Shown here: positions 26,420-28,497 of the stretch, in pieces | Layout of the letters: each line of letters begins with the position of its first letter | How positions within the stretch are numbered: the stretch's first letter is position 1 | Assembly: GCF_041080815.1 (NCBI RefSeq) | Contig: NZ_CP160205.1 | Span: 1,116,001 to 1,180,000 of the forward strand | DNA: 64,000 bases | Source of the DNA: Mucilaginibacter yixingensis | GTDB taxonomy: Bacteria > Bacteroidota > Bacteroidia > Sphingobacteriales > Sphingobacteriaceae | Direction: 5' to 3' | Position numbers and translations under genes: made by a program | The notes under the pieces: generated by a model | Databases searched by the model: none | What the model saw: only the letters and a program-made list of their open reading frames with translations | Told to the model about the DNA's origin: nothing

Positions 26420-27262
26420 ATGAAAAAGATCTATCTATTTTTATTAATACTCATCAGCATGGTATCAACGGTTAATACCGCGCGTGCCGGCTGGCCAATA
26501 GGCAAGTACCGCAATCTTGTGATCCCGTCTTTTAACTACTATACATCAAAAGATACGTGGGATCAGAACGGTGACAAGATCAAAGGTAAACCCGGTGCCG
26601 GTTTTACCAGCTACTCGTTTGGCTTGTATGCTGGTTACGGCATCACCCGTCGCTTAGACGCCATTGTGAATGTGCTTTACCCCATGCAGTACAGCGCCTA
26701 TCGCGATGGTTCAAATAACCTGGTAAAACAAAACAGCCAGGGTTTGGGCGATTTGCAGGCCGGTTTAAGCTACAATCTGTTCAACTTTGGTTATACCAGT
26801 TTCCTGTCGGTAATGGGTTCGGCTATTATTCCGCTGTATGATACTACCAAGACGGTGGCGCTGGGCTATGCCTCGTATGGAGCCGAGCTGAAGCTGATGT
26901 ACAGCGGTGCCATAGATAAAAGCTGGCTAAAAGGTTACTACAACCTGGAAGTAGGCTATCGTCGTTATTTTGCAGACCAAGGGCCGAATGTGATTATCTA
27001 TACCGCGTCAATGGGCGTGCCGCTTGGCCGCCGCAACCAGATGAGTGTGGAGCTGAGCGGACAGAACTCCTATAGTATCAACAAATCATTTAATCCCAAC
27101 CTGGCCGTAAACCGCGATTATCGCTTCACCAAGGGTGCCCTTAATTACGGTCATACTTTTACAAGGCGGTTCTCGGTGTTTCTCTCTGGCTTCTATACCT
27201 TTACAGGGCGCAATACAGGGCAGGGATACGGAGGCTCGGTGCAGTCGATATTTAAGTTGTAG
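26420..27262 (+). CDS. outer-membrane beta-barrel protein
   Basis: A 280-residue protein with a signal peptide (cut near NTARA-GW) and alternating hydrophobic beta strands throughout, ending in the aromatic-rich GSVQSIFKL expected of an outer-membrane barrel. It resembles the MetA-pathway phenol-degradation barrel family (transporter-like), for example SYSFGLYAGYGITRRLDAIVNVLYP, though similarity is only general. It starts 13 bases after the esterase and is the last gene of the operon. It may move small molecules or sugar products across the outer membrane. Confidence 0.75.
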   Translation: MKKIYLFLLILISMVSTVNTARAGWPIGKYRNLVIPSFNYYTSKDTWDQNGDKIKGKPGAGFTSYSFGLYAGYGITRRLDAIVNVLYPMQYSAYRDGSNNLVKQNSQGLGDLQAGLSYNLFNFGYTSFLSVMGSAIIPLYDTTKTVALGYASYGAELKLMYSGAIDKSWLKGYYNLEVGYRRYFADQGPNVIIYTASMGVPLGRRNQMSVELSGQNSYSINKSFNPNLAVNRDYRFTKGALNYGHTFTRRFSVFLSGFYTFTGRNTGQGYGGSVQSIFKL

Positions 27263-27297: not shown

Positions 27298-27788
27298 CCC
27301 CTCTAGAGAGGGGTTAGGGGTGTGTCATTCGTCATGCTAAGACACGGTGCAAAGAAAAATCATTCCTTATAATCAACATCTAAAAGAGCTGGCCAGGAAA
27401 CTCCGCAATGAAAGTACTCCAGGCGAAGTATTATTGTGGCAAGAATTAAAAGCCCAAAAGCTCGGCTATGATTTTCATCGGCAGAAACCGCTATTAAATT
27501 ATATTGTTGATTTTTACTGCAGCGAGCTTGAATTGGTTATCGAATTAGATGGCCTTTATCATGACGATATATTAGAGCTGGATGCTGTTCGTGATGAAGA
27601 GCTGCGGGCATATAATTTGACCGTATTGCGGTTTTCTGAGATGCAAGTGAGAAAGGATATGGCGAATCTATTGCGTGTGATAGAGCATTATATTGAGGAA
27701 TATGAAAGCGCTCACGGTTGTTGGAAGGACACACCCCAATGAAAGGTAGTGCTGTTGGGCTCTTTTGTGCATCCCCTCTCAAGAGGGG
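27298..27788. mobile_element. palindromic element carrying a DUF559 nuclease gene
   Basis: Terminal near-palindromes CCCCTCTAGAGAGGGG (27298-27313) and CCCCTCTCAAGAGGGG (27773-27788) flank an inner inverted pair GGGGTGTGTC (27317-27326) and GACACACCCC (27728-27737). The DUF559 gene fills the space between the inner pair. A copy with the same four blocks but only 16 bases in the middle lies at 27872-27965. The layout is like an autonomous unit and its gene-less derivative. Confidence 0.65.
27347..27742 (+). CDS. DUF559 (Vsr-like endonuclease fold) protein
   Basis: A 131-residue DUF559 protein, a family related to very-short-patch-repair endonucleases and the PD-(D/E)XK fold. Family blocks are all present: STPGEVLLWQELK, FHRQKPLLNYIVDFYC, VIELDGLYHDD and LTVLRFSEMQV. 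The start is GTG at 27347. The last codons (KDTPQ and the stop) are encoded in and just after the right inner repeat GACACACCCC, so gene and repeat are structurally joined. The function of DUF559 is not established; nicking or cutting of the element's hairpins is my inference. Confidence 0.85.
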   Translation: MQRKIIPYNQHLKELARKLRNESTPGEVLLWQELKAQKLGYDFHRQKPLLNYIVDFYCSELELVIELDGLYHDDILELDAVRDEELRAYNLTVLRFSEMQVRKDMANLLRVIEHYIEEYESAHGCWKDTPQ

Positions 27789-27871
27789 AAATGAAGTTTT
27801 GCGTAAGTAGCTTTCATACAGTATTTTGTGGCGTTAATTAACTTAGAAGGAAGCTTTGGAGTTGTGCGATT

Positions 27872-27965
27872 CCCCTCTTGAGAGGGGCGGAGGGGTGTGT
27901 CCTTATACGTGCGAAATGACACACCCCTGCAACCGCACATTCAACGCGCCCCCTCTCAAGAGGGG
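27872..27965. repeat. solo (gene-less) copy of the DUF559 palindromic element
   Basis: CCCCTCTTGAGAGGGG (27872-27887), GGGGTGTGTC (27892-27901), 16 bases, GACACACCCC (27918-27927), then CCCCTCTCAAGAGGGG (27950-27965). The same blocks occur in the same order as in 27298-27788, without the gene. Confidence 0.85.
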
Positions 27966-27984: not shown

Positions 27985-28010
27985 CCACTCGGCTCCAGCC
28001 GAGCGACTGC
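27985..28010. repeat. CTCGGCTCCAGCCGAG palindrome
   Basis: CACTCGGCTCCAGCCGAG followed by CGACTGC. The same unit recurs near 32407-32434 and, inside a larger structure, at 47570-47736. Confidence 0.75.
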
Positions 28011-28026
28011 AATTATAACTCCCCCT

Positions 28027-28497
28027 TTAGGGAGCTGGGGGAAACATCTTCCTGATCGCCTCTTCCCTAAACTCAAAAATTTGCCGTATCTGTTTCTCTA
28101 CAAATAAATTATTGGCTAGTCGGCCAATTGGTCCGTATGGTATGGCGTAGTTTAGAATATCGCGCATGCGGGTACCACCGGGGATGGCCTCAAAGTGATG
28201 CTGATGGTGCCACAGGGCATAGGGGCCAAAGCGCTGCTCGTCTACAAAATATTGCTGATCCTGTACGTGGGTAATCTCGGTCATCCAATCCATTTCAACA
28301 CCCAGGAAGGGGGAGATTTTGTAAGTGATAATCATACCTGGATACATTTGGGTGTGGGCAGTGTAGGGCGATGTTACTTTAAACTTCACGTTGTCTGGCG
28401 TAATCTTAGCCAGGTTCAACGGCGACCGGAAAAACTCCCAGGCCTCGGCCACGCTGATAGGAATATCCTGTTGCCAGGTAAGCAGGTATGTTTTCAT
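28027..28497 (-). CDS. SRPBCC family protein
   Basis: A 156-residue protein of the SRPBCC (START/Bet v1) fold, of the ligand-binding type often found alone or with SDR epimerases (COG4276-like). Recognisable parts are the opening IPISVAEAWEFFRSPLNLAKITP and the closing helix LFVEKQIRQIFEFREEAIRKMF. The ligand is unknown. The stop codon and last residues (PPAP) lie inside a CCCCCTTTAGGG-type repeat, suggesting that a repeat insertion reset the C-terminus by a few codons. It has no obvious operon partner. Confidence 0.82.
   Translation of the reverse strand: MKTYLLTWQQDIPISVAEAWEFFRSPLNLAKITPDNVKFKVTSPYTAHTQMYPGMIITYKISPFLGVEMDWMTEITHVQDQQYFVDEQRFGPYALWHHQHHFEAIPGGTRMRDILNYAIPYGPIGRLANNLFVEKQIRQIFEFREEAIRKMFPPAP

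Follow-up and report, generated by a model that had tools for sequence, protein, structure and literature searches.

Does a small nuclease of the DUF559 family serve the short inverted repeats between which its gene is found? This question is raised by a locus in Mucilaginibacter yixingensis, where a DUF559 gene lies between two repeat units and a gene-less (solo) pair of units follows it. The locus was analysed within a stretch of 64,000 nucleotides (the window), and the comparison was extended to the whole own genome, which is a single contig of 5.36 Mb, and to DUF559 loci and repeat units of other genomes.

Units and gene of the window locus

Four blocks had been noticed to occur twice in the same order, and all eight lie where they were placed. 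In the gene copy, two inward-facing units frame the DUF559 gene, each composed of the palindrome CCCCTCTnnAGAGGGG followed by GGGGTGTGTC on the gene side. The left unit contains a palindrome (27298..27313, plus strand) with the pyrimidine arm CCCCTCT, a 2-nt loop and the purine arm AGAGGGG, and, after a 3-nt linker, the inward-facing tail GGGGTGTGTC (27317..27326, plus strand), in which GGGGTGT is a fitting third strand to the purine arm. The gene (27347..27742, plus strand) begins with GTG and encodes a predicted Vsr-fold nuclease of 131 amino acids. The tail of the right unit (27728..27737), which is GGGGTGTGTC on the minus strand, is separated by 35 nt from its palindrome (27773..27788, minus strand). 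The last codons of the gene, noted earlier to fall in and just beyond the right inner repeat, indeed run through this tail block. The solo element comprises a left palindrome (27872..27887, plus strand), a left tail (27892..27901, plus strand) after a 4-nt linker, a right tail (27918..27927, minus strand) and, 22 nt further, a right palindrome (27950..27965, minus strand).

The pattern CCCCTCTNNAGAGGGG with up to two mismatches has four matches in the window, whereas 0.05 are expected from shuffles. The block GGGGTGTGTC with up to one mismatch also has four matches, all exact and all within the gene copy and the solo copy; this block by itself is within chance (2.1 expected), whereas the arrangement of blocks is beyond chance. 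Conserved sequence continues beyond the 94 bp of the window solo and is absent from the gene copy; the solo is therefore a member of a 29-copy genome family and no simple deletion derivative of the gene copy, from which it differs in subtype. Both elements lie between convergent genes (26420-27262 and 28027-28497). Additional palindromes (CTCGGCTCCAGCCGAG and GCGGCCAGAGGCCGC) recur next to the elements, at 27988-28003 and in the flanks of other own copies, so the intergenic slots of this genome are stacks of several short repeat families.

The DUF559 protein

The presence of a 131-residue DUF559 gene within one copy was borne out, as the product of the reading frame 27347-27742 matches Pfam DUF559 (PF04480) with E=5e-28 and 97.6 bits against a curated cut-off of 20.6. 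Among named proteins and loci, the closest belong to Mucilaginibacter. The model fold of the protein is nearest to 3hrl, to the homing endonuclease I-Bth0305I and to Vsr, a mismatch repair endonuclease that cuts T:G mismatches at a methylation site, and acidic residues and a histidine are invariant across 35 sequences. As modelled, the protein has the fold and the conserved acidic residues of a putative PD-(D/E)XK nuclease of the Vsr/EDxHD type. Unlike Vsr and the EDxHD homing endonucleases (I-Bth0305I), it is encoded by a gene that is framed by repeats. C-terminal residues that fit read-through into the right unit (e.g., HTPNPSQEGN) were found in 25 of the 120 nearest proteins, as counted with a motif list drawn up by the authors. 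A DUF559 protein of Caulobacter is described, in the accessible part of the source, as a putative mismatch-repair endonuclease able to damage DNA (PMC12907096).

Triplex letter code of the units

Repeats that may fold into intrastrand triplexes (BoxC, PIT and TM elements) have been known since the 1990s. In the units described here the tail is the reversed purine arm, with G opposite G and T or A opposite A in antiparallel orientation, as in a purine-motif intrastrand triplex. Arm and tail covary: AGAGGGG, GGAGGGG and GGGAGGG are followed by GGGGTGT, GGGGTGG and GGGAGGG, respectively, and AAAGGGGG and GAGAGGGG by GGGGGATT and GGGGTGAG, respectively. Across 484 cases (69 arms, 159 loci), in which palindromes were read on both strands so that about half could fit, 28.5% of the own tails were perfect compared with 5.9% after tails were swapped (maximum 10.3% over 300 rounds). 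The gap in mean arm/tail fit was smaller (0.65 own vs 0.61 swapped).

Two-sided flanking by perfect short-linker units was seen for 25 of 61, 47 of 80 and 5 of 18 loci; the figures for control ORFs were 2 of 75, 0 of 109 and 2 of 39. At least one side had such a unit at 38, 69 and 10 of these loci, compared with 11, 16 and 3 of the controls, respectively. This count omits L379, in which the gene is fused, and passes over the right unit of the window with its 35-nt second loop, the neighbouring solo serving as the downstream unit. Type C units, most of which have a long second loop, fit the code with such a loop in 14 of 15 loci when the expected tail is searched for.

By their letters, the window units conform to a class II (purine) intrastrand triplex motif. 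The available text of the 2015 survey by Holder et al. reports 3610 copies of the E. coli-type motif in 262 proteobacterial genomes, ties triplex motifs to genome instability, and gives 23 copies for E. coli K-12, in inverted pairs and with two types of second loop (PMC4666352). In that text, triplex formation in solution is shown with E. coli oligonucleotides, no stable triplex was seen in cells, and mobility functions near the E. coli triplex sites were not found (PMC4666352). BoxC, PIT and TM_ECO elements resemble the window units in their order of pyrimidine arm, loop, purine arm, second loop and G-rich third strand, and in being intergenic, numerous and arranged in inverted pairs, as far as the accessible part of the survey describes them (PMC4666352). 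They differ from the units described here, most solo pairs of which have one unit with a second loop of 20-22 nt, and which bracket a nuclease gene. The arms of TM_ECO are 9 nt long, whereas the window arms have 7 nt and other letters (same part of PMC4666352). TM_ECO/BoxC proper, given there as CCCTCNCCC N3-6 GGGNGAGGG N3 GGGNGAGGG, was therefore rejected as an identity for the window units, which read CCCCTCT / AGAGGGG + GGGGTGT. The window units appear to be built like TM_ECO but belong to another sequence family.

Copies in the own genome

A total of 57 exact palindromes was found in the whole own genome, and none in the reversed control. Within the stretches fetched from this genome, most belong to 29 solo pairs (91-100 bp), and in six pairs one palindrome carries a mismatch; the expectation of many solo copies held. 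The pairs lie 16 in one orientation and 13 in the other, and they are asymmetric, with a short linker in one unit and 20-22 nt in the other (25 of the 29 being readable by pattern). Many solo copies are conserved beyond the 94 bp as well. The genome contains one DUF559 gene. Twenty-seven of the 30 own elements lie in the chromosome half around coordinate 0 (p=8e-6 vs uniform spread), which is assumed to be the origin. This is like in kind to the clustering of triplex motifs nearer the origin that the available text reports for E. coli K-12 (PMC4666352).

Framing of DUF559 genes in other genomes

A set of 60 DUF559 loci from related genomes, nearly all standalone genes, was examined together with the window (61 loci), and flanking inverted repeats were counted at a score of at least 29. 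With test windows of 260 bases outside the HMM match for genes, and of 200 bases outside plus 60 inside the ORF for controls, such repeats were found at 49 of the 61 loci and at 4 of 98 neighbouring ORFs. A profile search yielded 80 named loci from Mucilaginibacter, Pontibacter, Flavobacterium, Algibacter, Rufibacter, others and metagenome-assembled genomes (MAGs); here 57 loci were repeat-positive compared with 1 of 144 neighbouring ORFs. Consistent framing of DUF559 genes by such blocks, as originally predicted, was thus found in both sets, with 12 of the 61 and 23 of the 80 loci under the threshold.

Repeat-positive named loci also come from MAGs with the labels Planctomycetota, Candidatus Jettenia, Ignavibacteriae and Chlorobiota, and the named MAG loci labelled Thermotogae, Aminicenantes and Deltaproteobacteria were negative for flanking repeats. 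Of 400 random pairings of an upstream with a downstream flank from different named loci, 93 match, as would be expected of units common to several loci. In a plasmid collection (Proteobacteria, Deinococcus and cyanobacteria), 12 of 19 loci have flanking inverted repeats, a count made without control ORFs. Among six longer DUF559 ORFs (379-409 aa), none has flanking repeats (scores 15-18). The placement of DUF559 genes between inverted repeats is a general pattern that spans several phyla.

Some loci have a distinctive setting. At L377, L365, L373 and L378 the DUF559 gene stands between genes of the same pathway, e.g., those for Sphingomonas transhydrogenase subunits and the Deinococcus hpa genes. 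In L379, a cyanobacterial CDS of great length, triplex-like inverted repeats surround the DUF559 domain. Type A units also occur in 35 viral-contig stretches (L176-L210), with many copies in some, and these stretches may be misfiled bacterial DNA.

Unit types, nuclease subfamilies and copy number

Three unit types dominate in the genus, namely A (CCCCTCT..AGAGGGG), B (CCCTCCC..GGGAGGG) and C (CCTCTCT..AGAGAGG). When the 61 loci were typed by flanking DNA alone, 35 had one type on both sides, 8 had a type on one side and 18 had none of the three; no locus mixed types A, B and C. In the protein tree, the B rows form one clade (98/96) and 16 of the 17 A rows form another (98/84). The unit-type labels change six times on this tree compared with a shuffled mean of 33.7; subfamily labels were set by the authors from unit maps and protein appearance, and the loci were later retyped from flanking DNA alone. 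Each nuclease subfamily goes with its own unit type. The exceptions are L063, with type A palindromes, and L080, with an A-like variant; both share an open node with the B clade and break the fit.

Copy number was compared with gene presence in 37 same-genus genomes, for which gene-presence sets and copy tables were entered by hand and the p values ignore relatedness. Type A units are present in all 12 genomes with an intact type A gene (4 to 35 copies) and in 13 of the 25 without one (0 to 52 copies; p=0.0025). Type B units are present in 8 of 9 genomes with a type B gene compared with 10 of 28 without it (p=0.008). Where a type B gene is present, type A copies are more numerous as well (p=0.03), and type B copies are not higher in same-genus genomes with a type A gene (p=0.30). 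Genome G017, in which the only gene is of type C, contains 29 type A units, and G031 contains 15 type A and 32 type B units. Fifty of the 80 named loci were taken for a second comparison, in which 49 genomes were searched (L277 being left out); its tables were likewise entered by hand, and the authors sorted the genes into A, D, E and 'none'. The own unit type was enriched for three unit types (p = 2e-4, 3e-3 and 2e-4) after the two flanking copies were subtracted, with relatedness uncorrected. Seven named genomes with a repeat-less gene contain A units in one case, D units in three and E units in two, and several unit types co-occur in Pontibacter genomes.

The original prediction staked its case on copy number depending on the gene, and this stood in part. 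Since type A and type B units are kept in 13 of 25 and 10 of 28 genomes without the respective gene, copy number is linked to the gene, yet the gene is no present requirement. By analogy, the gene-less units may be compared to transposon relics.

Evidence on movement and the proposed mechanism

In Pontibacter aydingkolensis there are three gene-bearing elements of ~440-450 bp, whose genes were recognised by translated frame. The flanks of one are unlike those of the other two, and its homology ends at the units; the flanks of the other two resemble each other. Among the matches listed, DUF559 gene loci are often orthologous between species, so the gene probably moves rarely and part of the association between gene and units is shared descent.

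Two species, G013 and G031, are 93% identical around one common gene locus. They were compared in 20 stretches of each, which hold 22 of 32 and 21 of 32 listed type B places, respectively, and in further syntenic stretches that were chosen. Fifteen distinct type B slots of G031 have both flanks in the sampled G013, and G013 holds type B at 11 and type A at four of them; none is empty. Slots with A in one species and B in the other are L222, L224 and L225 in G013 and L165, L166 and L220 in G031. At two of the four swapped slots the common left flank continues into the start of the unit, and at one the two types have opposite orientation. At three B slots and one A slot of G013, G031 holds unrelated sequence with other repeats. 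Orthologous loci that lack the element with clean edges had been anticipated, and neither a clean empty site nor a target duplication was found among the own-genome copies, the G013/G031 slots or the E. coli ycjD region. The own-genome copies have, at most, a 3-bp AAT/ATT duplication, which is itself part of the conserved edge.

These sequence comparisons make it moderately probable that the Vsr-fold DUF559 nuclease is a RAYT-like partner that acts on triplex-coded units and spreads them. Movement and cleavage of the units are what we infer. The DUF559 product would recognise its own triplex-coded units by binding a folded single strand (hairpin plus third strand), e.g., on the lagging strand, and would nick or cleave the folded unit. 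Repair or replication would then copy the unit pair to a different slot, whether or not it carries the gene. Moves of the gene would be rare and its inheritance mostly in place, as for RAYT genes, and the short pairs would be non-autonomous and persist longer than the gene. That a mobile palindromic element exists here in an autonomous and a non-autonomous form, as first proposed, agrees with the framing and the gene-less copies; it needs amendment in that the neighbouring solo is of another subtype and the blocks fit an intrastrand-triplex code of the BoxC/PIT/TM kind. A wider reading, put forward tentatively, makes DUF559 the enzyme dedicated to a mobile-repeat superfamily of cosmopolitan distribution, which would be recognised by a three-stranded DNA fold. 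The DUF559 subfamilies would each read their own arm/third-strand code, spread units in the ordinary chromosomes of many phyla (E. coli BoxC/PIT included) and be able to overwrite the units of rivals in place.

Other explanations draw on the same evidence. The many intact genes never caught moving could mean a host role, and the enzyme may be a structure-specific or repair nuclease that clears replication-stalling triplexes or hairpins and stands beside the units by regulation or descent, with no spreading. The proximity of its fold to the repair enzyme Vsr, the frequent inheritance of gene loci in place across species and the putative mismatch-repair role of the Caulobacter protein (accessible part of PMC12907096) favour this explanation. 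It leaves unexplained the subfamily-specific unit types and a framing far above the rate of the neighbours, and we regard it as unlikely. A serious alternative to transposition is homing-like rewriting, by which a unit of another type would be cut in its slot and repair would copy in the own type, with no jump to empty sites. The 11 B, 4 A and no empty slots in G013, the left flanks that reach the unit start at two of the four A slots and the fold near a homing endonuclease all agree with it. The opposite orientation at one slot and the unrelated sequence at four other slots in G031 speak against it, and the data suit repeated insertion at permissive intergenic sites equally; such rewriting appears quite unlikely.

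On another account, DUF559 is a passenger and a RAYT (Y1 tyrosine transposase) encoded elsewhere moves the units, which is very improbable. Like 52 of 60 relatives, the own genome has Y1 genes, but A, B or C units were found near none of 30 Y1 loci and triplex units on either side of none of 29, and 7 of 30 Y1 loci have GTAG-tagged flanking repeats instead. Coincidence of descent, in which a small foreign gene came long ago to lie between units that pile up at permissive intergenic sites and was then inherited, accords with the orthologous gene loci and with the frequency of units without the gene. Already weakened by a framing that recurs with matching types across contexts and phyla and is absent from neighbours of the same loci, it is hardly credible. 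The preferred reading, that of a RAYT-like nuclease spreading its own units, is set beside known systems below.

Relation to known systems

CGTC-tagged REPs, with letters that we take to be those of the pattern, were tried as a frame of DUF559 genes and rejected, as the 19 plasmid-collection loci show no such bracket and only two isolated 8-mers. GTAG-tagged hairpins were rejected as an identity for the units, the tail being GGGGTGTGTC and the units being absent from all 30 Y1 loci. REP/RAYT systems (REPtrons), as the available part of PMC3733652 describes them, resemble the present elements in that one small nuclease gene is framed by inverted short repeats, which are also dispersed without the gene, and in being mostly inherited in place. 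They use a Y1/HUH enzyme and GTAG-tagged hairpins, whereas the elements described here have a predicted Vsr-fold, PD-(D/E)XK-type enzyme and triplex-coded tails (same part of PMC3733652). Membership in REP/RAYT was rejected, since the framed gene belongs to PF04480 and is no Y1 tyrosine transposase.

The partnership had been put forward as not known to be described, and no report that pairs DUF559 with triplex or palindromic repeats was found in the open-access papers searched; none of the titles listed for DUF559 concerns such repeats. The words ycjD and endonuclease are absent from the main texts of PMC4666352 and PMC10888264. A nuclease family framed by triplex units, with its own type for each subfamily, is a concrete enzyme to test for the origin of the units. 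The units would also supply a substrate for a large nuclease family whose annotation goes no further than DUF559 or 'very-short-patch-repair endonuclease'. If the enzyme does read a triplex, this would be an unusual mode of DNA recognition.

The E. coli protein YcjD belongs to the same Pfam family, and a triplex unit lies ~175 nt downstream of ycjD; unlike the window gene, ycjD has a unit on this side only. No mobility of ycjD was seen in the E. coli sequences examined. The E. coli strains without ycjD that were examined (L383 and L385) have an efflux operon after sapF instead.
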